Below, in pieces: positions 2,576 to 22,228 of a stretch of DNA of 23,505 nt. The DNA lies in IMG/VR virus record IMGVR_UViG_3300025917_000059, positions 1-23,505 of that record; one strand, 5' to 3'. Position 1 is the stretch's first letter. Each line of letters starts with the position of its first letter. This DNA comes from a virus. Under the pieces are notes generated by a model. It was not told where the DNA came from. It was given only the letters and a program-made list of their open reading frames with translations, and did no database searches. The position numbers and the translations under genes are program-made.

Positions 2576-3598
2576 ATGGAAGTTTTCGACGTCTTCAATG
2601 AAGACCCCTTTACGCTGGTCAGTCTGACCGCATCCGCCAACCGCCTGCCCTACGTGCCCGGGCAGGTCAGCTCTTCCGGCCTTTTCGAGGAAGACGGTGT
2701 CCCGACCACGACGATTCTCGTTGAGGAATTGAACGGCTCGCTCTCGATGATCGCGCCGACGCCTCGAGGAGGCCCAGGCGAAACCGTGATCCAGGACAAG
2801 CGCAGCATGCGTTCGTTCCAGATCCCACATTTCCAGCGCGACGACGCCGTGATGGCGGACGAAGTGCAGGGTGTGCGAATGCTCGGCATCAACAACGAGC
2901 TCGAGACCGTGCAGAATCGGGTCGACGTCAAGATGGGCCGGCATTTCCGCGATCTCGACGCGACGCTCGAACATCAGCGGGTCGGCGCCATCAAGGGCGT
3001 CATCACCAACAAGACCGGCGGCACGATGTTCGACCTGTTCGCACTTTACGGAATTAGTGCGCCGGCCGACGTCTCCTTCCCGCTGACGACGGACACCACC
3101 AAGGTCCGGCAGTTGACCCTGCAGGTTATCACCTCGATCGAGGACGTTCTGGAGGCTGCGAGCTATTCCGGAATCCGGGGTTACTGCGGCAAGACGTTCT
3201 GGAGCAATTTGATCGAGAACAAGTCGGTCAAGGAAACCTACCTGAACACGGTGCAGGCGCAGGAACTTCGGGGCGATCCTTCCGCCAAGGAGTTCGAATT
3301 CGGTGGCATCACGTTCGAGCGCTACCGCACCGGCTCTAAGGCCTCGGCGGCCAACGCGGGCGGGGCGCCGTTCATCGCCGATACCGAGTGTCGTTTCGTT
3401 GTTGAAGGCGTGACGGGGCTGTTCATCACGCGCTTCGCGCCAGCGGATTATCCGGAGACCGTCAACACCATCGGCCTTCCGCGCTATGCCATGCAATACC
3501 CGATGGAAAATCGCAAGGGCCGCGCGCTGGCGATGCAGTCCAACTCGATCAACATCTGCACCCAGCCGAAGACCCTGTTCCGCGGCGTCGCCAGCTGA
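2576..3598 (+). CDS. Major capsid protein (lambda gpE-like)
   Basis: The 340-residue length is almost that of lambda gpE (341). It directly follows the decoration gene, as in lambda. The N-terminus (MEVFDVFNEDPFTLVSLTASANRLP) and the middle segment YGISAPADVSFPLTT are typical of gpE-family capsid proteins, which begin with a domain ordering the subunits and contain the HK97 fold. The ribosome site GGAG lies about ten bases before ATG. The stop is TGA followed by C, and the same frame stays open downstream into the next gene. It forms the icosahedral shell, with the scaffold and protease acting on it during maturation. Confidence 0.92.
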   Translation: MEVFDVFNEDPFTLVSLTASANRLPYVPGQVSSSGLFEEDGVPTTTILVEELNGSLSMIAPTPRGGPGETVIQDKRSMRSFQIPHFQRDDAVMADEVQGVRMLGINNELETVQNRVDVKMGRHFRDLDATLEHQRVGAIKGVITNKTGGTMFDLFALYGISAPADVSFPLTTDTTKVRQLTLQVITSIEDVLEAASYSGIRGYCGKTFWSNLIENKSVKETYLNTVQAQELRGDPSAKEFEFGGITFERYRTGSKASAANAGGAPFIADTECRFVVEGVTGLFITRFAPADYPETVNTIGLPRYAMQYPMENRKGRALAMQSNSINICTQPKTLFRGVAS

Positions 3599-3607
3599 CA
3601 CCTTGCC

Positions 3608-4231
3608 TTGAGCGCGGAATGGTGGCGCATTCCGCGCGAGTGGGAAGGCGAGACGGCATTCATTATTGCCGGAGGTACGAGCGTAGCCGATCAGGACACC
3701 GATCAACTCAAGGGCCGAAAGGTCATCGCGATCAACAGAAGCTGGGAACGGATTCCGTTCGCGAACTTTCTGTTCTTCGGTGATGATCGCTGGTGGCGAG
3801 AGTTCGGGTCCGAAGTTTTGGCCAGATTTCCCGGCCGTATCGTGACATGTGCACCGGGCGTCAAACACGAACGGTTCCTGAAGTTGAAGAAATTGAAGCC
3901 GGATATCGGGCTCTCGGCGGACCCTTCCGAAGTGATGGTGCGGCGGACTTCATTAACCGGTGCGCTCAATCTGGCCTGGCACTTGGGTGCCGAACCGATC
4001 GTGCTGCTCGGCGCTGATGGTAAGCGTGGGGCCAACGGACGTCTCCATCACCATGCCGAATATGACGGAGCCATGGCGAACGAAGTTTCCACCATCTGGA
4101 CAGAGCAGCGGACCGATCTGACCGGTGCAGCCGAAGTCCTGAAGGCTGCTGGCGTCCGCGTCGTCAATGCCTCTCCCGGAAGCGCTCTGGCCGATCTGTG
4201 GCCGATCGTGGACCTGAAGGATTATCTCTAA
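3608..4231 (+). CDS. DUF115/GT42-like Rossmann protein, possible sugar-nucleotide enzyme
   Basis: This 207-residue protein begins with TTG, the only usable start after the capsid stop in this frame. A FIIAGGTSV strand-loop at about 18-26 looks like a nucleotide-binding turn. It is followed by the VIAINRSW strand, a FGDDRWW segment, then TSLTGALNLAWHLGAEPIVLLGAD (about 115-138). This order resembles DUF115/MptE-like proteins and GT42 sialyltransferases, which share a Rossmann-like fold and bind sugar or pterin nucleotides. A histidine-rich LHHHAEYDG segment follows and could be catalytic or metal binding. It sits nine bases after the capsid gene and before a decoration-lectin fusion and a GT9-like gene, which hints at modification of a surface structure. 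The exact reaction cannot be told from sequence. Confidence 0.55.
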   Translation: MSAEWWRIPREWEGETAFIIAGGTSVADQDTDQLKGRKVIAINRSWERIPFANFLFFGDDRWWREFGSEVLARFPGRIVTCAPGVKHERFLKLKKLKPDIGLSADPSEVMVRRTSLTGALNLAWHLGAEPIVLLGADGKRGANGRLHHHAEYDGAMANEVSTIWTEQRTDLTGAAEVLKAAGVRVVNASPGSALADLWPIVDLKDYL

Positions 4232-5518
4232 ATGGCGACCAGGATAGAGCGCCACCACGCGTCAGCCTTCGTCATCAAGGAAGATCAGCAGTCGCGCTCC
4301 TCCCGCACGCTCGCCAGTGGCCAATGGCTGCAGGCCGGGACCGTGCTGGAGGAAGCCGACGGCAAGGTCACGGCCTTTGTCTCGGGCACGATCGCAGGGG
4401 TTCTGCTGAATGAAACCAATGCGCTCTCGGGCGACGTTCTTTCCCCGGTGCTGGCCCGGGTCGCGACGGTCGCGCTCGATGAACTCACGTTTCCGGCCGA
4501 ATCCCGGGACGCCGTGATCGCGGGCTTATTGGCAAAAGGCATCGTTTCAATGTTCTCGCCCCAGCTCGCCGATACAGGTGGAGGCGGGGGAGGCTATGTA
4601 GCGAAGGCGGTTCGTCTCGGTTTAAATTCGGCAATGATGGTTTGGTCTACTCTGCCTGACGCATCCCAACTTACGATAAGCCAATGGACTAGGGCAGATG
4701 CCGCCGCGATCTCACAATTTCCAGTCATCGTCGGTCAAGATTTTATAAGTGAGGCGGAGATCGGGTTCGTAAACAACACTGATATTGGCGGAATTTTCTA
4801 TCCGAAAGGCCAACCAGCAAATCAGTACATTCGTTATGACACCGCAGACGGGCTATTCACTTCGGATGTCTATCACCATTTCTTTCTGACGGTGGATACC
4901 GGTTTCGATACTCCGAACAAGAAAATCGCGTGCTGGTTTGACGGCGTTCCAGTGATTGAACCATCCAACATCACCGATCTTGGCTCTGCCTTTAACATAC
5001 CTACCAACGGGCTCGGGTTTGGATTTCCCGATGCAGTTTCTATCGGAAGTAATACACAGGCGATGGATTATTGCGATCCACAGGTCTGGATCGGGCAGTA
5101 CATCGATCCAGCTTTGCACATCGACAAATTTCGTGATCCAGCTACAGGCAAGCCAGTTGATCCGGCTATTCCGGCCGCCACCTTTGGGCAGCAATCCATT
5201 CTGTACAGCGGGGATCACACAGCATTTCAAATCAACCAAGGCAATGCGGGATCGGCGTTTCTGGTGACCGGAGCCGGGGCAACAGGTTCTAATGGGGCAG
5301 GGTCTGTCACCTGCACCAATGCGACCGTTGGTGCGCCCATTGTAAAAGTGCAGACGATAGATTTCACCACCGGGGATGTCTCATTCATTACAGAACAGTT
5401 TGAAGCGACAATTTCCGTTGATGGGCAAATTCAACAGACGTCGTCAAACGATAACTCAGCACTACAGCTTTTTGTGTATCTGGCCAATGCCACCATTGCA
5501 GACACCGACGCGCCATGA
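4232..5518 (+). CDS. Second gpD-like decoration domain fused to a lectin-like domain
   Basis: Residues about 10-105 follow the gpD pattern: LASGQWLQAGTVLEEADG, then GTIAGVLLNE, SGDVLSPVLARVATVALDEL and a final AVIAGLLAKGIV helix. A run of six glycines (116-121) joins this to a C-terminal region of about 300 residues. That region has features of a concanavalin A/LamG-like beta sandwich: the YHHFFLTVD and KIACWFDGVPV strands and a DPQVWIGQYIDP segment, followed by FRDPATGKPVDP and a beta-rich end. The likely role is to sit on the capsid as a gpD trimer and display the sandwich outside, perhaps binding glycans. GC drops sharply just after the glycine linker, which suggests the outer domain was acquired separately. 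ATG is preceded by GAAGGA about ten bases upstream. Confidence 0.65.
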   Translation: MATRIERHHASAFVIKEDQQSRSSRTLASGQWLQAGTVLEEADGKVTAFVSGTIAGVLLNETNALSGDVLSPVLARVATVALDELTFPAESRDAVIAGLLAKGIVSMFSPQLADTGGGGGGYVAKAVRLGLNSAMMVWSTLPDASQLTISQWTRADAAAISQFPVIVGQDFISEAEIGFVNNTDIGGIFYPKGQPANQYIRYDTADGLFTSDVYHHFFLTVDTGFDTPNKKIACWFDGVPVIEPSNITDLGSAFNIPTNGLGFGFPDAVSIGSNTQAMDYCDPQVWIGQYIDPALHIDKFRDPATGKPVDPAIPAATFGQQSILYSGDHTAFQINQGNAGSAFLVTGAGATGSNGAGSVTCTNATVGAPIVKVQTIDFTTGDVSFITEQFEATISVDGQIQQTSSNDNSALQLFVYLANATIADTDAP

Positions 5519-5553
5519 CAAACGCCACCACAAGCCCGGGAAGTGATTGAGGA

Positions 5554-6489
5554 GTGACCTCGCCGCTTCTGGTCCGGGGCATGCATGGCCTCGGGGATAA
5601 TCTGCATCAACGGGCGCTATTGAAGCAGCTGATGAACAAGGGTCATGAAATCTGGCTGGAATCCTCCTGGGTCGCGCCCTATGTGGATTTAATTGGGGCA
5701 GGCGGTCTTCATATCCTGCCGAAGGATTCGCGGCAGCGGACACAGCGAAAGAATGCCGAACGGGAAGCAAAACTGTTCTCTCCCGTCGCCTGTCCGAAAA
5801 ATGTGCCGCACATGCAGGTGTGGTACAGGCCTGAAGAAGTGAGAAAGCGCGGCTCTGTGCTCGCGGCGATGTGCGCCAGCGTTTCCTGTGACTATGAGAA
5901 GGCGGACTTCAGGTTGTCCGTTCCGGATTCGTGGTTGGCGAGGGCCGACGCTCTGATCCGATCCTGGAAGCCGACAAAACCGATCCTGATCTACCGCCCC
6001 CTGGTGGAACGAACCGAATGGAGTGGCTGCAGGGCACGGAATCCGGATCATGCTGGGTACGCGGCGCTGTTCGAGAGCTTTCGCGACCGGTTCTTCGTGG
6101 TCTCGATCGCGGACCTGGTCGACAAGATCGAATGGATGGTCGGGAAACCGGTTTCTGCGGACGTTACGCTTCACGCCGGCGAGCTCGATTTCGAGATCAT
6201 GGCGGCTCTGTTCAAAAGAGCCGCACTGGCGTTCTGTTCGCCGGGCTTTGCGGTGATCCTGGCTCAAGCGGTCGGGACGCCGGTTATCTGCGCCTTCGGC
6301 CGCTACGAGCGGGCCTATTCGTTTTCAGGCGGCGCGAGGTTTTCACCCTACCTCGGAATCGAGCCGATCAAGCCTTGCGACGATTTCCGGCACGACGATG
6401 TCGGCGACAAGCGGATTGATCTCGGGATGGAGATTCCGAAAATCGAAGCTTTCGTCGCGGCGCACGTGAAGGAACATGAAAATGCCTGA
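5554..6489 (+). CDS. GT9-like glycosyltransferase (heptosyltransferase-type GT-B fold)
   Basis: A 311-residue protein. The N-terminal LLVRGMHGLGDNLHQRALLKQL strand-loop-helix matches the start of the GT-B fold in family 9 (ADP-heptose:LPS heptosyltransferases). Near the C-terminus the segment ALAFCSPGFAVILAQAVGTPVICAFG (about 225-250) matches the nucleotide-sugar binding turn of that family (usually a TG..H.A...G.P.V..FG pattern). Here the usual glycine/histidine positions are altered, so activity is not certain. The start is GTG, the first possible start after an in-frame stop at 5548; ATG 5581 would lose the first strand and is less likely. It follows the decoration-lectin gene. A role in glycosylating phage capsid or fibre proteins, or host LPS, is inferred from context. 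Confidence 0.65.
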   Translation: MTSPLLVRGMHGLGDNLHQRALLKQLMNKGHEIWLESSWVAPYVDLIGAGGLHILPKDSRQRTQRKNAEREAKLFSPVACPKNVPHMQVWYRPEEVRKRGSVLAAMCASVSCDYEKADFRLSVPDSWLARADALIRSWKPTKPILIYRPLVERTEWSGCRARNPDHAGYAALFESFRDRFFVVSIADLVDKIEWMVGKPVSADVTLHAGELDFEIMAALFKRAALAFCSPGFAVILAQAVGTPVICAFGRYERAYSFSGGARFSPYLGIEPIKPCDDFRHDDVGDKRIDLGMEIPKIEAFVAAHVKEHENA

Positions 6490-6655
6490 GCGCCGGCCAC
6501 TCAATTCGAACGCCTGCAATTTCGAGGAAATGCGCGCGGTCATCCGCGAGGCGGATGAGCAAATTGCAGCGGTTTACGACGAACAAAACAAGCTACGAAC
6601 CGATTTCGACGCGTTGGTTTCAAAACTGGGAAACCTCGGGGCGCACCCTACGTGA
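6482..6655 (+). CDS. Small helical protein of unknown function (57 aa)
   Basis: This short gene overlaps the end of the glycosyltransferase by 8 bases and has a good ribosome site (AAGGA at 6469-6473, eight bases before ATG). It ends at TGA 6653-6655, which overlaps the GTG start of the next gene (GTGA). The protein is charged and predicted helical, with a coiled-coil-like stretch: FEEMRAVIREADEQIAAVYDE, then QNKLRTDFDALVSKLG. No domain is recognised. The tight coupling on both sides and the codon use make it a likely real gene. It could be a small partner of the enzymes around it, but that is a guess. Confidence 0.6.
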   Translation: MPERRPLNSNACNFEEMRAVIREADEQIAAVYDEQNKLRTDFDALVSKLGNLGAHPT

Positions 6656-6951
6656 CGGCGGACCTCACAAAGTCCGCCGTGCTCGACAAACACCTTCAAG
6701 ATGCGATTGCGGAATTCTCACCGAAGAAAGACCAAACCATGTCCCGCGGATTGCGCCGGCTGAAAAGCCTGACCGAAACCCTGATGGCCTCGATCGATAC
6801 CGAGGCCGACAAGGCCGCATCAGAATTGCAGAAAGCGCACGATGAAGCAATCGACGCGGCCAAGAACGTCGTTGCTACCGTCGGCGGAGAATTCAAATCC
6901 GCGACCGCCGACATCAAGGACATGCTGAACCAGACCAGCAACGAGCAATGA
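6652..6951 (+). CDS. Amphipathic helical protein of unknown function (99 aa)
   Basis: GTG start overlapping the previous stop (GTGA) and ATGA overlap with the next gene. The protein is almost entirely predicted helix, with many Ala, Lys, Glu and Asp residues (SLTETLMASIDTEADKAASE, then a stretch of Ala/Asp/Lys helix and KDMLNQTSNEQ). It has no Cys, no membrane segment and no recognised motif. The heptad-like spacing suggests a coiled coil or a lipid- or protein-binding amphipathic helix. An internal ATG at 6739 could give a shorter product of about 70 residues. It is placed between a glycosyltransferase and a methyltransferase. Function unknown. Confidence 0.6.
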   Translation: MTADLTKSAVLDKHLQDAIAEFSPKKDQTMSRGLRRLKSLTETLMASIDTEADKAASELQKAHDEAIDAAKNVVATVGGEFKSATADIKDMLNQTSNEQ

Positions 6952-7559
6952 AACTTCCCCTGATCAGCCAGAAGGAAATCGGCGCCAAACCGATCGACTG
7001 GCACGGGCTGACCCGGCGCTTCATGAATCCGGGCGAACTGGAAGCATTGATTGCCCTGGTAAGAGGTGTGAATCCGAAAGGCGTGCTGGAAATCGGCGTC
7101 AACGGCGGAAGAACGGCAAAGGCGATTCTGGATCATGTCGATGGAATTGAATGCTACCAGGGCATCGATGTTCTTCCGGGTTACGTTCCGGAAAAAATGG
7201 TCCAGCGCAAGGAAGTCCCGGACAATCCCGGATCCGTGGCTTCACACGACAAAAGGTTCGAGCTGATCCTGAAGAAGAACGGCTCGCTGGATCTGAAGCC
7301 TGAAGATCTGAAACCATGCGATGCCGTGTTCATCGACGGCGATCATGGACGAAAGGCTGTCCTCAACGATACCGCATTGGCCAAGGCTCTGGTTCGTCCG
7401 GGCGGAATCATCATCTGGCATGACTATCACGGACTGACTGATCGCCAGGGGAAGTGTGTGGTCGACGTCAGAGATGTTCTGGACGAGATGCATTCAAAGG
7501 GTGAGCCCATCCTGCATGTCGCCGATACCTGGCTGGCATTTCTGAGGGTGCCGGCGTGA
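6948..7559 (+). CDS. Class I SAM-dependent methyltransferase (Methyltransf_24-like)
   Basis: A 203-residue protein with class I methyltransferase landmarks. Motif I is GVLEIGVNGGRTAKAIL (45-61), which holds the SAM-binding glycine-rich loop. An acidic end of strand 2 lies near QGIDV (71-75). The segment CDAVFIDGDHG (124-134) is followed by a helix and GGIIIWHDYHG (152-162). The FIDGDH...GG.I..HD pattern is typical of the Methyltransf_24 group, which often methylates sugars or small molecules in cell-surface glycan clusters. It starts at ATG 6948, overlapping the previous stop (ATGA), and overlaps the next gene by four bases. With the GT9-like and DUF115-like genes it supports a small glycan-modifying cassette. 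The substrate is unknown. Confidence 0.82.
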   Translation: MKLPLISQKEIGAKPIDWHGLTRRFMNPGELEALIALVRGVNPKGVLEIGVNGGRTAKAILDHVDGIECYQGIDVLPGYVPEKMVQRKEVPDNPGSVASHDKRFELILKKNGSLDLKPEDLKPCDAVFIDGDHGRKAVLNDTALAKALVRPGGIIIWHDYHGLTDRQGKCVVDVRDVLDEMHSKGEPILHVADTWLAFLRVPA

Positions 7560-7927
7560 GCATCGATTATCCGTCTCTGTTGTTCGATCCGATCTATCAG
7601 ACGATGGGGGTTCCCGCGCGATTGACCCCGCAGTCGACAGGCGTTGGTGTCGACGTCACGGTTCTCGATGATACCTCCGGCGCGGTCGTCATCTCTGGAA
7701 GTCTCGGCATCCAGACCATCAAGCCGGCGGCCTCGATCCGGGGCACGGAACTGGTGGCGAACGACCTATTGCCGAAAGATTTAGCCGGACCGCTTGCGCG
7801 GTTGACCTTGCGCCCAGGAGATCCCGGCGAAGTGACCTGGCGGATCGAAAGCTACGCATTGAAGCCTTCACCATCAGGAGAAATGGCGGGTGAAATTCAA
7901 CTGGTGCTGATCAGGACCGAGTCATGA
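7556..7927 (+). CDS. Head-tail joining protein (lambda FII-like)
   Basis: A 123-residue, mostly beta protein starting with GTG in a GTGA overlap. The N-terminal LLFDPIYQTMGVPARLTP segment, followed by VDVTVLDDTSG, a SIRGTELVANDL stretch and the late WRIESYALKPSPSGEMAGEIQLVL, follows the pattern of phage head-tail joining proteins of the FII/Gifsy type (lambda FII has 117 residues). These proteins form the ring below the portal and gpW to which the finished tail joins. Its place after the accessory insert and before the tail terminator-like gene agrees with the lambda order. Confidence 0.7.
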   Translation: MSIDYPSLLFDPIYQTMGVPARLTPQSTGVGVDVTVLDDTSGAVVISGSLGIQTIKPAASIRGTELVANDLLPKDLAGPLARLTLRPGDPGEVTWRIESYALKPSPSGEMAGEIQLVLIRTES

Positions 7928-13626: not shown

Positions 13627-16344
13627 GTGACCATCGACGCCGGTCCGTTCTATTTTGCATATGCCGATGCGGGAGAGGCGTTCGATCCAACGGTCCACAA
13701 CCGGATGGATGAATATGTCCTCTCGGCGCGGCGGCAGCTCCGGGAACGGTTGAAGCCGGTGCTTCAAGTCGAGATGGTCAACCCGCATATCGGGGTTTTG
13801 AATCCAGCGCGTAAGACCTGGGTGTGGTTTTCCTACGACACTAACTCGACGGCCGGAATCATTCCACTGTTCAACGGGCGTATCGACGCGGTACCATCCG
13901 ATATCTTCTCCGAAGTGATCACGCTGCAGTTCGAGTCGCGCCCGGTCGATTATTTTGCGAGACTTCAGCGCACCGCCGAGACCAAGAAGATCGCGCCGTT
14001 CTATGATCAGGTGTTCATCGATCCGATCAAGCGCGACGATCCCGATACCATCCTGGAGGCGTGGTCGGCACTTTGGCATGTCGATCCGGTCACGCTGGAA
14101 GTGACGGCCTCGGACATCCTCAACGGCGAGGACGGCAACGAGGATTTCACGGCGGATGATGCATTCTATGATTCGGTCAGAATGCGCCCGACCGGCCAGG
14201 CACCGCTTACCTCTGTTCTGGTCGACGCTTCCGTATCCTGGACCCAGACCGCCCGCGGCTTCGTCGACATGGGCAACAAGGTGATCTTCTCCTATGGCGG
14301 GGACGGGGTGATCAACGACTGGCCAGCGCCCTTGACCCAGTTACAGGGCGGATGGTCGGTACAATATTCCATCGCGGTCGATGTCTACGGAATCCGGCAG
14401 GCCCTGACCGGGAATATGACCTACAGCTGGACGAATCCGGCGAAAAAGCATTCGGACGGAGATGCACTTTCGCTGAATCTCTCGATGACGGTTCCTCAAC
14501 TGCAGGGGCCGTTCCTTCATTACATCCTGACCGAGAAAACCCAAAGCGGTGTGCTCGATCCATTCGCGGTTGACGAAGACGGGGATCCGGCCCCCCTCAA
14601 TATTCCGCAGTCGATCGATCTCACCGACGTCTATTGCCCGCTGTGGCAGGTCAACACGTCGCTTGTTCTACGATACGACGCGGCACGGCAGAGAACCGAG
14701 CGCGTCATCATTATGCTGAAGGGCAATTTCCAGGCGGTGATCAACGATCCACTGGTCACCCAGAATTCGGAGACCATCACCAAGACCGGAACCGATGTCG
14801 GAGTCCCCATTGTCAACCTGCTGAATTCCACAACGGTGAGGGGACAGCCGGTCGAAGAAGGGCAAATCATCTTCCCGGATGATCCTTCACTTCCCGGCGG
14901 AAGAAGCGCGCAGATCGCGACCAATGACGGCACGGCAGGAAACGAGGAGCCTGAGTTTTCCGATATTCCTGGAGACACGACGTTGGACAACGACGTGACT
15001 TGGGCGAGCCTCGGGACGCAATCTCCCACGGAAGGGGCGCTGGACTGGACCGCGGTCTCCCATGTTCCCGTTGGAGAAATCATTCTTCCGAGGCTTCCTT
15101 TGTGGACGACATGGAAGGTCACGTTACAGCCGGGCCTCGCCCAATTCCCGAAGGTCGGCGTGGGGATTTCGCTCTATCAGATCGTGCAGGGCAACAACGG
15201 TTATTTCTTCTCGGCAACGCTCGATGGAACGACTGACATCATCGAGCCGATCTGGCCGACGACCTACGGTTCAACGATTATCGACGGAAGCGTCGAGTGG
15301 ACGTGCATTGGAAACCAGCTTCCCGATGGCAAGACCTATTTCATCACGCCGAACGGAGGGACCACGGGAGCTTTGGGTTTGATTCCCCCGTTCGGTTCGC
15401 ACGGCACCTTGCACGATTCACTGTCCGACAACGGCGTGACGTGGATCTCGATTGGACCGGGAGACATTCCCGCCGGCGGGACGCCAGGGAATGTCTGGGC
15501 ACGGTCCTACTTCCCGAGCGACCGCGGCCAGCAGAGCATCCAGTATCTGATAGCAGTTGCCAGAGCCCACATGCTGATGCGGGCGAGGGCCATTGAAGTC
15601 AGTTTCGATTGTTCGTTCGACCGCGGAATTTCCTTAACGTGCCGGAAGACCGCGACGCTGCATGATTCGAGGATCGGGGGCGGAATTGCCTTAGGAAAGA
15701 TCACCTCGGCCGAACTGAGCGTGAACGGCGACACAGGAGAGGCGATCTGTCACGTCACCATGGGCTGTGCGGTGGGATTTGGCGGTTCAGTCGAGGAAGT
15801 CGAGGGCGATCCGGTCTACGCGGCTCCCGGTTACATGCAGAAGGGCTATCAGCAGTACACCGGGCAGACCATCGTGCTCCCGACGTTAACGGATGTTGGT
15901 TACTCGCCTCCGGTCGCAGCCCCCGATGATGACGGATTGGTATTTCCCCTGGACAAGGACCAGATCGTGGTCTCCGAAGGCATCAAGGGATCCAGGGCTG
16001 CGCAGGAAACCGCGATCATGAGTTCGTTCGCCTCGATGGCGATCGCGGCCCGAATAGGCGCGGGTCAGGGAGCCGGGTTGGGCTTTACCAGTGGCGGCAG
16101 TCTCTTCACTTCCGGAGGACTCGGAGGGGTCAACTCGGGACTTTCGACATCCATCATGCTGCAGCAGATCGCGATCCAGGCCAATGCCAATTCAGTCGCA
16201 AGGGCCTTGCAGCGCAACGCGATCTATTACGACGCGCAGATCAAGCCGGTGAATTCCGGGCCGTTCTTCGATCTCTACAAGATCGACACCACGGAATTGC
16301 AGGCGCCGAAAGGTATCGATCTGACGGCAGCGAGCACGCCATGA
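13627..16344 (+). CDS. Large tail tip / baseplate hub-like protein with inserted repeats
   Basis: A 905-residue protein starting with GTG one base after the previous stop. The N-terminal 200 residues are beta rich, with strands such as PVLQVEMVNPHIGVL, WVWFSYDTN, IIPLFNGRIDAVPSDIFSEV and ITLQFESRPVDYFARLQ. This resembles hub proteins that ring the tail tip and carry receptor-binding insertions. Three copies of a short pattern ending in D-N/G-x-V-x-W-x-x-I/L-G occur near residues 453, 553 and 601 (DNDVTWASLG, DGSVEWTCIG, DNGVTWISIG). The segment RAIEVSFDCSFDRGISLTCR (about 655-674) returns to a hub-like fold. The C-terminus is helical with a Gly/Ser-rich loop. It probably forms the tip that contacts the cell surface. 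The family name is not certain. Confidence 0.65.
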   Translation: MTIDAGPFYFAYADAGEAFDPTVHNRMDEYVLSARRQLRERLKPVLQVEMVNPHIGVLNPARKTWVWFSYDTNSTAGIIPLFNGRIDAVPSDIFSEVITLQFESRPVDYFARLQRTAETKKIAPFYDQVFIDPIKRDDPDTILEAWSALWHVDPVTLEVTASDILNGEDGNEDFTADDAFYDSVRMRPTGQAPLTSVLVDASVSWTQTARGFVDMGNKVIFSYGGDGVINDWPAPLTQLQGGWSVQYSIAVDVYGIRQALTGNMTYSWTNPAKKHSDGDALSLNLSMTVPQLQGPFLHYILTEKTQSGVLDPFAVDEDGDPAPLNIPQSIDLTDVYCPLWQVNTSLVLRYDAARQRTERVIIMLKGNFQAVINDPLVTQNSETITKTGTDVGVPIVNLLNSTTVRGQPVEEGQIIFPDDPSLPGGRSAQIATNDGTAGNEEPEFSDIPGDTTLDNDVTWASLGTQSPTEGALDWTAVSHVPVGEIILPRLPLWTTWKVTLQPGLAQFPKVGVGISLYQIVQGNNGYFFSATLDGTTDIIEPIWPTTYGSTIIDGSVEWTCIGNQLPDGKTYFITPNGGTTGALGLIPPFGSHGTLHDSLSDNGVTWISIGPGDIPAGGTPGNVWARSYFPSDRGQQSIQYLIAVARAHMLMRARAIEVSFDCSFDRGISLTCRKTATLHDSRIGGGIALGKITSAELSVNGDTGEAICHVTMGCAVGFGGSVEEVEGDPVYAAPGYMQKGYQQYTGQTIVLPTLTDVGYSPPVAAPDDDGLVFPLDKDQIVVSEGIKGSRAAQETAIMSSFASMAIAARIGAGQGAGLGFTSGGSLFTSGGLGGVNSGLSTSIMLQQIAIQANANSVARALQRNAIYYDAQIKPVNSGPFFDLYKIDTTELQAPKGIDLTAASTP

Positions 16345-19649: not shown

Positions 19650-20396
19650 ATGACCCGAAAGATAAGTGCCTTCGGCACGTTGACAGGTGTAAATGCCGAC
19701 GTCACGGCGGACTATATCCCGATCATCGACGCCAGCGTGGCCGACGCATCCAAGAACAAAAAAATAACTCTGGACGAATTGAAGATTGCGCTTGGAATTC
19801 AGGGCCGGCCGCCGACCACGTCGCTGTTTTCCTTTACTGCCAACGCCACCAGCGCCACGCAATCGGCCACCTATGATGCGGGCAAGGGGCTGTCGGTGTC
19901 CAAGACCGATGCCGGCGCGAGTTCGACCGACCGGGCGATCTTCAACGGCAAGGCGGTTCCCGTCTCAACGCCGTGGACCGCGACCGGCAAAATCCGGGTG
20001 TCTCCATCGCTCGCGACCGAGTTTGTCCGCGCCGGACTTGCGATCTACAATTCGTCGTCCGGCAAACTGCTGTTTGTCGGCATCAACAATCAGAGCGGTG
20101 CCGCGCATCTGGTGGTGATGTACTTCACTGCTCTCGGAACGTTCTCGTCTTCGCCGTATGACAAGACGATTCTGCCGATCAACGTTCCGCTCTGGTACCG
20201 CATCACGGACGACGGCACCAACAACCTGTTTTACATCTCGTTTGATGATGGAGTGACGTTTACGCTGGTGGCAACCTGCTCGAGAGCCTCATTTTTCACC
20301 GCCGACAAGGTGGGCGTCGCGATCGAGACCTTCGGTGCGATCACGGTGACGCCAGCCATGCTTGTGCCGCATTACGACGATCCCGACTTCCCTTGA
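19650..20396 (+). CDS. Fibre-like protein with lectin-type beta sandwich
   Basis: A 248-residue protein. The N-terminus KISAFGTLTGVNADVTADYIPIIDASV, with KKITLDELKIALG, is a pattern common at the start of tail fibre proteins that joins them to the tail. From about residue 55 it is beta-rich: LFSFTANATSATQSATYDAG, AGLAIYNSSSGKLLFVGINNQSG and VPLWYRITDDGTNNLFYISF, then DDGVTFTLVATCSR. This resembles the concanavalin A/LamG-like jelly rolls that bind sugars. The stop TGA overlaps the TTG of the lysin gene (TTGA). It may be a second adsorption protein next to the main fibre. No enzymatic residues are evident. Confidence 0.6.
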   Translation: MTRKISAFGTLTGVNADVTADYIPIIDASVADASKNKKITLDELKIALGIQGRPPTTSLFSFTANATSATQSATYDAGKGLSVSKTDAGASSTDRAIFNGKAVPVSTPWTATGKIRVSPSLATEFVRAGLAIYNSSSGKLLFVGINNQSGAAHLVVMYFTALGTFSSSPYDKTILPINVPLWYRITDDGTNNLFYISFDDGVTFTLVATCSRASFFTADKVGVAIETFGAITVTPAMLVPHYDDPDFP

Positions 20397-22228
20397 ACGA
20401 TCTTTCCTTCTCCGGCTATCGGTCATTCGAGGCCACAATCGACGATCCGCTGCGCCTCAAGTGGAACGCCATGGCCAAGGACGTCCCGACAGATTGTCTG
20501 ATCCCGCTGCCGCAGCGGGCTCCGATCTCTGCCTTCAATGCCTGGGCAAATAAGGAAATAAAATTCGATCATGCGGAATCGGAATCGCTGGAGGTCTGGC
20601 AATCACCGACACAAACCTTTTCTGCAAAGCGCGGCGACTGCAAGGACTATGCGCTTTTAAAATATGCCGCACTGAAAAAGGCCGGCGTCGAAGTTCGCAT
20701 CGTCCTTGGTGAGATCAAGTCGGCGATGAAAACCAATCCGCAGCATGCCTGGTGCGCGGCCAATATTGATGGAATCTGGTATGCGCTCGACAACGACTTC
20801 GATCATCTCCAGCCGCTGCCCTACCTGAACTGGATTCCGTCCGCGGTCCTGCATGATTCCAGCGTGGTGAAGTTCGGGGCGGAATTCAGGATCAGCGACA
20901 TCGTGCCTCAATCATTTTCTTCGTCACTTCCGGAAAGCAACACCATGATGACGCCGCGCGTGGTCGACCTCTCGCACCACAACCAGGTGACCGACCTCAA
21001 GGCCACGGCGATGGCAGGGGTCTATGGGGTGATCCACAAGTCATCTCAGGGGTCAGGTTATCGGGATCCGGATTATGTTTCCCGTCGTGCGCAGGCCAAG
21101 GCCGCGGGTCTGTTATGGGGAGCCTATCACTTCAACGACGGATCGGATGTCGCCGCTCAGGTCGACTGGTTCCTGAAATGCGCGGCGCCGGATGACTCGA
21201 CGCTCCTTGTGCTCGATTTCGAGGACAATCCGAAATCCAACATGAGCATTGCACAGGCCGTTCAGTTTCTAAGGCTGCTGGAGCAAAAGACCGGCCGCAA
21301 GGGCGCGATCTATTCCGGCAACCGGCTCAAAGAAACCATTCATATTCTCGGATCGAATGACCGCGCCTATCTTTGCTCGCATCGTTTGTGGCTGTGCCAG
21401 TACGGCCCCAAGGCGGTTCTTCCCGCGGGATTCCCGAATTACTGGCTGTGGCAATATACCGGGGACGGAATCGGACCCGGGCCTCACGGCATCCCGGGAA
21501 TTCAGGGATCGGGCATCGATCTCAATGCCTATGATGGTGATCGAGCCAAGCTGAAATCGGAATGGGCCCCAGGTGGTCTTGAACAACCGGACGATCAGGT
21601 ATCCTCGCATGCGCGCCAGGCCGCGGCGGATGATGACGGTTCGGACGACGTACCGAATCCACAACCGGTGCCGCAGAACGTGCAGCCGCAATCGGCGGCC
21701 TACAGCCTCGACGTCGAGATCGTTCAGAGGAAACTCGATCGCTTGGGCTATCACGACGTCGGAGACATGGACGGCAAATGGGGCGGCAAGACCAAGGGCG
21801 CCCTGACGGCTTTCCTGAACGATCGCGGCGTCGATCTCGTGGTGAACGGCGGCCCTACGCCTGAGATAAACAACGTCATCTCGGCGGCATTGGCAGAAGG
21901 CTGGACGCGGCCGATCTCGGATACCCGCGCCAATGCTACCGCAAAGGATATCGCGCCCAAAATCGAGGCGGTGCGTCAGAGCCTGTGGCAGCGTTTCCTG
22001 GCCAAGATTACTGGAGCTGGAGCTGCGGGAACGGCGCTGGTGACCGGGGTCGGGAGTCAATTCGGCTCGGTCAACGATCAATTGAGTCCGGTCAAGCAGT
22101 TCTTCGCCAGCATTCCTGGCCCTGTCTGGTTCGGACTGATCGCGCTTGCTGCGCTCGCGGTCTATCTCAGTGCCAACAAATCCACCAATGCTACCGTTGC
22201 GGCCTACAACACAGGAAAGATCAACTGA
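20393..22228 (+). CDS. Four-part lysin: transglutaminase-like Cys protease + GH25 muramidase + PG-binding domain + C-terminal TM helix
   Basis: A 611-residue protein starting with TTG in a TTGA overlap. Residues about 45-140 match the bacterial transglutaminase-like cysteine proteinase family (C93): Cys83 in KRGDCKDYALLK, His118 in NPQHAW and Asp133 in YALDND form the expected triad. Residues about 188-390 are a GH25 lysozyme: Asp192 in VVDLSHHN, then YGVIHKSSQG, WGAYHF, and the catalytic D-x-E Asp275/Glu277 in LLVLDFEDNP. After an acidic linker, residues 438-480 (LDVEIVQRKLDRLGYHDVG) fit a peptidoglycan-binding domain. A membrane helix lies at about 576-593 (GPVWFGLIALAALAVYLSA). GH25 cuts between MurNAc and GlcNAc. 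The C93 substrate is not known. A second start at 20945 could give a lysin without the protease. Confidence 0.82.
   Translation: MNDLSFSGYRSFEATIDDPLRLKWNAMAKDVPTDCLIPLPQRAPISAFNAWANKEIKFDHAESESLEVWQSPTQTFSAKRGDCKDYALLKYAALKKAGVEVRIVLGEIKSAMKTNPQHAWCAANIDGIWYALDNDFDHLQPLPYLNWIPSAVLHDSSVVKFGAEFRISDIVPQSFSSSLPESNTMMTPRVVDLSHHNQVTDLKATAMAGVYGVIHKSSQGSGYRDPDYVSRRAQAKAAGLLWGAYHFNDGSDVAAQVDWFLKCAAPDDSTLLVLDFEDNPKSNMSIAQAVQFLRLLEQKTGRKGAIYSGNRLKETIHILGSNDRAYLCSHRLWLCQYGPKAVLPAGFPNYWLWQYTGDGIGPGPHGIPGIQGSGIDLNAYDGDRAKLKSEWAPGGLEQPDDQVSSHARQAAADDDGSDDVPNPQPVPQNVQPQSAAYSLDVEIVQRKLDRLGYHDVGDMDGKWGGKTKGALTAFLNDRGVDLVVNGGPTPEINNVISAALAEGWTRPISDTRANATAKDIAPKIEAVRQSLWQRFLAKITGAGAAGTALVTGVGSQFGSVNDQLSPVKQFFASIPGPVWFGLIALAALAVYLSANKSTNATVAAYNTGKIN
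20945..22228 (+). CDS. Possible internal-start product: GH25 endolysin without the protease domain
   Basis: ATG ATG at 20945-20950 is in frame with the long lysin (Met185, Met186) and lies just before the GH25 domain. It is preceded by GGAAAG (20932-20937) with seven bases of spacing, a usable ribosome site. Translation from here would make a 427-residue protein with GH25, peptidoglycan-binding and membrane parts. Many GH25 endolysins begin right at their first strand, as this product would. Whether both forms are made is not shown. Confidence 0.5.
   Translation: MMTPRVVDLSHHNQVTDLKATAMAGVYGVIHKSSQGSGYRDPDYVSRRAQAKAAGLLWGAYHFNDGSDVAAQVDWFLKCAAPDDSTLLVLDFEDNPKSNMSIAQAVQFLRLLEQKTGRKGAIYSGNRLKETIHILGSNDRAYLCSHRLWLCQYGPKAVLPAGFPNYWLWQYTGDGIGPGPHGIPGIQGSGIDLNAYDGDRAKLKSEWAPGGLEQPDDQVSSHARQAAADDDGSDDVPNPQPVPQNVQPQSAAYSLDVEIVQRKLDRLGYHDVGDMDGKWGGKTKGALTAFLNDRGVDLVVNGGPTPEINNVISAALAEGWTRPISDTRANATAKDIAPKIEAVRQSLWQRFLAKITGAGAAGTALVTGVGSQFGSVNDQLSPVKQFFASIPGPVWFGLIALAALAVYLSANKSTNATVAAYNTGKIN

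Follow-up and report, generated by a model that had tools for sequence, protein, structure and literature searches.

A portable trio of two predicted glycosyltransferases and a methyltransferase among the late head genes of proteobacterial phages

What is a set of putative sugar-transferring and methylating enzymes doing between the capsid and neck genes of a phage? The question is raised by the window analyzed here, a stretch of 23,505 nucleotides of viral DNA (IMG/VR record IMGVR_UViG_3300025917_000059) from a soil phage. All the genes concerned lie on the plus strand. A gpD-type head decoration protein (2134 to 2520; PF02924, E 1.7e-30) and a lambda-type major capsid protein gpE (capE, 2576 to 3598; PF03864, E 5.5e-92) are followed, after only 9 nt, by a DUF115/GT42-like glycosyltransferase (3608 to 4231), a second gpD-like domain with a 316-residue extension (4232 to 5518), a GT9-fold glycosyltransferase (5554 to 6489), two small helical proteins (6482 to 6655 and 6652 to 6951) and a class I SAM methyltransferase (6948 to 7559). 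An FII-like head-closure/neck protein (7556 to 7927) marks the end of the cassette; its match to phrog_82 (head closure Hc1) is weak (E 0.14) and its position is kept in relatives. The genes are tightly packed, with overlaps of 4 nt at each of the last four junctions (8 nt between the GT9-like gene and the 6482 to 6655 ORF). This is the gene set proposed by an earlier sequence-only reading, all of whose ORFs were found with coordinates exact or a few bases off. The three enzymes are under purifying selection (dN/dS of 0.12 to 0.26 against the nearest relative), and this, together with residues invariant across the whole family, argues strongly that the ORFs are truly coding.

The first core enzyme (3608 to 4231) matches phrog_4603 (“alpha-2,3-sialyltransferase,” E 3.3e-28), and its proposed identity as a DUF115/GT42-like protein holds by fold and motifs and not by the Pfam profile (PF01973, DUF115), which scores 13.8 bits, below the cut-off of 34.6. 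A search of PDB sequences gave no useful match. The AlphaFold model is confident (pLDDT 91.3) and shows the central Maf_flag10 fold of the Maf type, the best match being Maf 5mu5 (Z 16.7 over 189 of 207 residues). The GGxS, N43, GxDG and HHH motifs are conserved in the family, including residues G23, S25, N43, D59, G135, D137, H147 and H149. Maf flagellin glycosyltransferases are the nearest solved fold, although they have N- and C-terminal domains of their own that are missing here; the three-domain Maf architecture is absent and the phage product is a single 207-residue domain. The fold is also shared with the GT42 sialyltransferase CstII (Z 12.2), but at low identity (ca. 15%), and the use of a CMP-sugar donor is in this case a prediction. 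Maf glycosylates proteins, namely flagellin (PMC11339370), and the phage enzyme probably carries out the sugar-to-protein step. A search of the open-licence literature combining DUF115, phage and glycosyltransferase found no paper.

For the second core enzyme (5554 to 6489), the GT9-like assignment is upheld by the predicted fold and not by the Pfam GT9 model. It matches phrog_6804 (E 4.7e-26), while Pfam returned no family at E≤1, GT9 (PF01075) included, NCBIfam only sub-threshold matches to heptosyltransferases, and PDB sequences no useful match. The AlphaFold model (pLDDT 92.0) is a confident GT-B structure of the GT9 type that matches 3tov (Z 20.1), TibC (Z 19.7) and WaaF (Z 18.2), with WaaC also related; enzymes outside the GT9 group reach a Z of ca. 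11 or less, with the exception of plant NDH-PSI chains (15 to 17). TibC is an autotransporter protein heptosyltransferase, i.e., it glycosylates a protein, and its D110A mutant is inactive (PMC4358343). The GxGLGD motif (GMHGLGD here) has its aspartate, D15, in 59 of 60 sequences, and from motif and fold we infer that D15 is the equivalent of TibC D110. The model aligns from TibC residue 95 onward, the phage protein having no counterpart of the N-terminal beta-barrel. Most family members (48 of 59 relatives) have a Cys-rich C-terminal motif (CxC...C) that resembles the four-Cys iron finger of TibC; it has been lost in the window protein, which retains one Cys.

The third core enzyme (6948 to 7559) proved to be the class I methyltransferase that had been proposed. 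It matches PF13578 (Methyltransf_24) with 48.3 bits, above the cut-off of 26.3 (E 2.1e-12), and the EIGVNGGRT and FIDGDHG...IIWHDYH motifs are kept across the family, which also adjoins terminase or capsid genes in ca. 30 further phages. A fused relative has a weak match to TIGR04371 (“putative sugar O-methyltransferase”), and in locus L084 a TylF-type enzyme occupies the same slot. The product is probably a sugar O-methyltransferase.

The three enzymes travel together. The GT9-like protein is encoded by at least 201 viral contigs and, among its 66 clusters, a DUF115 gene was located within 2 kb upstream in 47 of 57 and a methyltransferase gene within 2.5 kb downstream in 53 of 61. Of 52 non-redundant loci that were informative, 38 had all three genes. 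Furthermore, DUF115 and GT9 are fused into a single ORF in 18 loci, GT9 and methyltransferase in two (L087 and, with the TylF-type enzyme, L084), and a 714-residue viral protein with an annotated methyltransferase domain matches the DUF115 model. These natural fusions point to the trio as probably one pathway. As to location, the cassette lies in the head-to-neck/tail interval in 29 of 34 loci, which include unrelated head types, being found downstream of lambda gpE and of the unrelated HK97-type capsids (PF05065). The suggestion that this is a glycan-modification cassette within the late head region is thus borne out by the co-conservation of its core enzymes with structural genes in many phages. 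There were five exceptions. In L051 and L086, the cassette follows TerL and portal, in L046 it sits between the antiterminator Q and the lysis genes, and in L090 it is in the tail region; the fifth is L097. An origin in LPS clusters was ruled out for three of them (L051, L086 and L046) by their phage-gene neighbors. Exactly one family match was detected in each of the five host genomes searched, and the family looks phage specific.

The sequence-only reading expected related phages to keep these genes in this place. However, in 6 of the 12 loci recovered through the capsid protein the trio is missing there, so the cassette is accessory. Loci L052 and L049 share no proteins other than the trio (30, 61 and 60% identity), and L081 and L040 have the cassette and the tail in common but not the head. 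The GT9 tree requires the head type to change 11 to 13 times and the tail type 9 times; on these numbers, coinheritance with one head type was rejected, the tail fitting slightly better. The cassette has been exchanged between phages whose heads and tails are unrelated, and therefore no specific virion acceptor is indicated. The trio recurs in ca. 200 phage sequences that differ in other respects, and so probably represents a portable kit.

We consider that the trio probably serves the late-expressed glycosylation and O-methylation of a virion component, with a rough probability of 55%; the acceptor and the product are both predicted. The Maf/CstII-like enzyme would take an activated sugar from the host, most likely a CMP-linked sugar of the nonulosonate or Kdo type, and attach it to Ser/Thr of a protein of the particle. 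A second sugar would then be added to the first by the TibC/WaaF-like GT-B enzyme, and the SAM methyltransferase would cap a hydroxyl of the second. In the window phage, candidate acceptors are the capsid protein, both gpD-type proteins (including the extension of the 4232 to 5518 product) and the neck or tail proteins. The benefit may be shielding, stability or altered adsorption. Action on virion parts was also the proposal of the sequence-only reading; the fusions and the protein-glycosylating relatives by fold (Maf and TibC) fit it, and the link to the virion is one that we, too, infer. More tentative, at somewhat less than even odds, is the fuller picture of a Maf-type protein O-glycosylation cassette that is exchanged among proteobacterial phages across unrelated heads and tails and gives virions a methylated glycan coat. 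Such a shield on particles would resemble flagellin or autotransporter glycans.

The main rival, unlikely in our view and less likely than virion coating, is that the trio alters a glycan of the host surface (LPS core, O-antigen or capsule) upon induction or at a late stage of infection, which would stop debris from adsorbing progeny or exclude competitors, the place in the late operon reflecting expression only. GT9 and GT42 enzymes classically build LPS or LOS, and LPS is the substrate of WaaC/WaaF-type enzymes, which share the GT-B fold of the phage protein. The portability of the cassette among unrelated heads and tails, the dispensability of the phage P1 homologs (see below) and the extra glycan enzymes found in some relatives (a pyruvyl transferase-like protein and, in L013, a PIG-L-like one) would also suit this explanation. 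Against it stands the preference for the head-neck interval across unrelated head types described above. Moreover, typical serotype-conversion genes are located near attachment sites and expressed in lysogens, and the fold relatives Maf and TibC modify proteins.

Within virion modification, the acceptor might be a specific head or neck fiber or display protein instead of the capsid lattice, such as the gpD fusion here and collagen-like or LamG-like proteins elsewhere. The 4232 to 5518 ORF had been described as a decoration-lectin fusion. Its gpD domain is real (PF02924, 37.3 bits against a cut-off of 29.1, E 3.4e-9), although restricted to the N-terminal residues 6 to 103. Searches of Pfam, NCBIfam, PDB sequences and phage records found nothing similar to the extension, and in IMG/VR it matched only copies of the same phage; there being no database relatives, the “lectin” label is a motif impression. 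The gene is private to the window phage, and it was rejected as a member of the conserved cassette, of which it had been considered a part; its product is a candidate acceptor or display protein. The two small ORFs (6482 to 6655, known from its translation, and 6652 to 6951), both with profile matches below threshold only, are not conserved in the cassette either. Collagen-like proteins were found in 13 of 62 representative loci (with Pfam Collagen matches in L059, L025, L035 and L121), too few for a universal acceptor, which was rejected, and in L028 the FII-like protein carries a LamG domain. With most cassette loci devoid of a collagen-like protein and the gpD fusion confined to one phage, we regard a dedicated display acceptor as improbable.

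Least probable by far is accessory cargo (a moron) acting on a small-molecule, lipid or nucleic acid substrate with no connection to virion or surface glycans, to which the match of the methyltransferase to phrog_2675 (named DNA methyltransferase) and the presence of the Rossmann-like DUF115 fold in thiamine pyrophosphokinases and MptE-like pterin enzymes (the latter with a Z of 11.7, level with CstII) might point, but these pterin/thiamine-type folds, at 11.7 or less, are weaker matches clearly below Maf (Z 16.7), proteins of two glycosyltransferase folds are linked to, or fused with, a single methyltransferase, and base-modification genes are absent beside the trio.

To our knowledge, phage virion glycosylation has been documented in few systems, mainly mycobacteriophages. 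Capsid-modifying cassettes have already been proposed, and the trio is a variant on that theme. In Corndog (Cluster O), an O-methyltransferase (gp35), two glycosyltransferases (gp36 and gp37) and a GlcNAc-transferase (gp38) are located between portal and protease, and the absence of capsid peptides from the mass spectrometry data led to the proposal that the capsid is modified (PMC4351075). As in the window phage, glycosyltransferases and an O-methyltransferase lie among head genes; in contrast, the position is portal-protease, the host is an actinobacterium, and the description of Corndog does not include a trio with Maf/GT42-like and GT9 enzymes. In Che8 and Rita, phage glycosyltransferases have been linked to major capsid protein glycans (Freeman 2023, as cited in PMC11256854), and in the related Maravista the glycosyltransferase genes are near the 3′ end of the genome and not in the head operon. 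Phage P1 has two homologs of the DUF115-like enzyme, PmgO and PmgP (hhalign E 5e-18 and 3.5e-9), among its putative morphogenetic genes, adjoined by the glycosyltransferase PmgQ. Unlike the window gene, they are outside any capsid-neck interval, and the GT9-methyltransferase pair was not found in their region. P1 lytic growth proceeds without either (PMC10695390), which means that the modification is not necessarily structural. If the virion-coating explanation is true, virion glycosylation would be common, extending over ca. 200 viral contigs and the prophages of cultivable Proteobacteria such as Bradyrhizobium sp. NFR13 and Achromobacter mucicolens, with a bearing on adsorption, particle stability and immune recognition, and the family would be a source of small glycosyltransferases for study. 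The GT9 and methyltransferase genes are also located among head, neck or tail genes in the cultured phages Psp6 (host P. putida), P7869 and Mulvp2 and in the D14C record.

The window, a 23,505-base virus record, contains late genes from the portal C-terminus through lysis, and six ORFs, several with overlapping ends, lie between a lambda-type capsid gene (2576-3598) and an FII-like neck gene (7556-7927). Three of them form a cassette coding for a DUF115-like glycosyltransferase (3608-4231, matching phrog_4603), a GT9-like glycosyltransferase (5554-6489, with phrog_6804 as the only match) and a methyltransferase (6948-7559, PF13578). Two small ORFs gave only sub-threshold matches in family profile searches. 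The sixth (4232-5518) is a second copy of the head decoration protein gpD in the same phage (the first is at 2134-2520), with the gpD domain at residues 6-103 of its product and a 316-residue extension, relatives of which were found only in copies of the window phage. The sequence-only reading had counted this gene, as a decoration-lectin fusion, within the cassette. It does not belong to the conserved part; other cassette phages carry other extras in or near the interval, i.e., an FII-like protein bearing a LamG domain (L028), collagen-like proteins or a pyruvyl transferase-like enzyme (L105), so that display accompanies the cassette in varying forms and is not what is conserved. The 4232 product is a putative lectin at most. 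In L028 (7552-10023), the LamG domain (PF13385, 6.7e-23) precedes a C-terminal FII-like neck domain, an apparent neck-displayed lectin. The C-terminus of a collagen-like protein in another viral locus (L059, 1625-2689) matches portal-family C-termini (phrog_1289), which suggests a portal-derived display anchor. In one DUF115-bearing lambda-type phage (L013, 10416-12384), this interval holds a methyltransferase of another kind along with a PIG-L-like deacetylase.

By profile scan, the GT9-like protein is encoded in at least 201 viral contigs and at 11 loci of bacterial genomes. The profile had exactly one match per genome in five host genomes searched whole, and thus does not mistake LPS heptosyltransferases for this protein. 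Clustering at 90% identity left 66 groups, a few of them split copies, in which DUF115 lies within 2 kb upstream of GT9 in 47 of 57 and the methyltransferase within 2.5 kb downstream in 53 of 61, with both present in 38 of 52. DUF115 and GT9 form a single ORF in 18 loci, GT9 and the methyltransferase do so in L087, the L084 GT9 has a TylF-like O-methyltransferase as its fusion partner, and the DUF115 model matches a 714-residue viral protein annotated with a methyltransferase domain. The methyltransferase family also sits beside terminase/capsid genes in ca. 30 phages without this GT9 (L035, L153-L200), recurring between terminase and portal with protease-capsid type heads; in L035 it adjoins another, weakly matching GT9/TPR-like protein, with a collagen-like protein nearby.

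Conservation of the glycan genes at the capsid-neck site, a check suggested in the sequence-only reading, held only in part. Of 34 loci that extend far enough to either side, 29 have the cassette between the head genes and those for neck/tail. It is found downstream of lambda gpE/gpD heads, HK97-type heads (portal, protease and PF05065 capsid) or protease-capsid fusions plus portal, the last often with a collagen-like protein. The five loci placed otherwise follow terminase and portal genes (L051 and L086), separate antiterminator Q from lysis genes (L046) or lie in the tail region (L090); L097 is the fifth. In the named phages Psp6, P7869, D14C and Mulvp2, GT9 and the methyltransferase sit among genes for the head, neck or tail. 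However, searching with the capsid protein gave 12 loci, of which six are without the trio and three carry DUF115 only. In two P. aeruginosa phages, an ORF annotated as anti-CRISPR is found just upstream of GT9 (L123, 5501-6073; L201, 5638-5997), and in L123 so is a T5orf172/MUG113-type protein.

The cassette is accessory and portable. A GT9 tree of 39 rows needs at least 11 changes of head type (shuffled mean, 17) and 9 of tail type (shuffled mean, 18). L052 and L049 have only the three cassette proteins in common (30/61/60%), and L081 and L040 are alike in cassette and tail (51-90%) and unlike in the head. Between the window and its near relative L008, identity is 89% for the capsid and 86% for the tube, and 45% (DUF115), 72% (GT9) and 57% (methyltransferase) for the cassette, with dN/dS of 0.12-0.26 for its enzymes. 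The interval changes fast or recombines, with its genes kept under purifying selection.

AlphaFold models, built on alignments of relatives from the fetched loci, had mean pLDDT of 92.0 (GT9-like) and 91.3 (DUF115-like). The former matched 3tov (Z 20.1), TibC (19.7), WaaF (18.2) and WaaC (16.7), followed by epimerases and other transferases (Z ca. 11); as modeled, GT9 enzymes fit it well above most other GT-B folds. The best match of the latter was Maf (5mu5, Z 16.7 over 189 of 207 residues), followed by CstII (Z 12.2), which the Maf_flag10 domain is known to resemble (PMC11339370). Maf enzymes attach nonulosonic acids to flagellin in O-linkage; the one from Clostridium botulinum also takes Neu5Ac and Kdo (PMC11339370). 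TibC heptosylates autotransporters and is inactive as D110A (PMC4358343). The G-L-G-D Asp is kept in 59 of 60 phage GT9 sequences. Four Cys form an iron finger in TibC (PMC4358343). The phage family has a C-x-C...C motif (48 of 59), largely lost from the window protein. GGPS, N43, D59, GxDG and an HHH stretch are conserved in DUF115; the conserved residues of both families may have donor-binding or catalytic roles.

Most simply, the cassette would be a glycosylation pathway produced alongside the structural proteins, in which the DUF115-like transferase would prime Ser/Thr, the GT9-like one extend and the methyltransferase cap. We favor a virion component as acceptor (probability ca. 0.55) because of the late position, the protein-acting fold relatives and the precedent of Corndog. 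This phage likewise has an O-methyltransferase and glycosyltransferases inside its head genes, but between portal and protease; its capsid peptides are missing in MS, and capsid glycosylation by phage enzymes was proposed (PMC4351075). Such glycosylation is known in the mycobacteriophages Che8 and Rita, as cited in PMC11256854. A specific capsid acceptor is made less likely by portability, which would fit a tolerant acceptor choice, by analogy with Maf, for which no conserved sequon is known (PMC11339370), or else modification of a host surface glycan (LPS, capsule), the main though less likely alternative. In phage P1 (L125, 5941-7127), the tandem PmgO and PmgP, with the glycosyltransferase PmgQ nearby, are both homologues of the first cassette enzyme and dispensable for lytic growth (PMC10695390). 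No description of this trio was found in the open-licence literature searched, the coverage of which is incomplete.

Elsewhere in the window, the endolysin (20393-22228) has a transglutaminase-like domain at its N-terminus (PF01841, 5e-11), which is unusual, besides a GH25 domain (PF01183, 2.9e-26); its peptidoglycan-binding match is weak. Past the tape-measure region, residues 522-560 of a 905-residue protein (13627-16344) match the head-decoration family phrog_20658, perhaps through a shared repeat.
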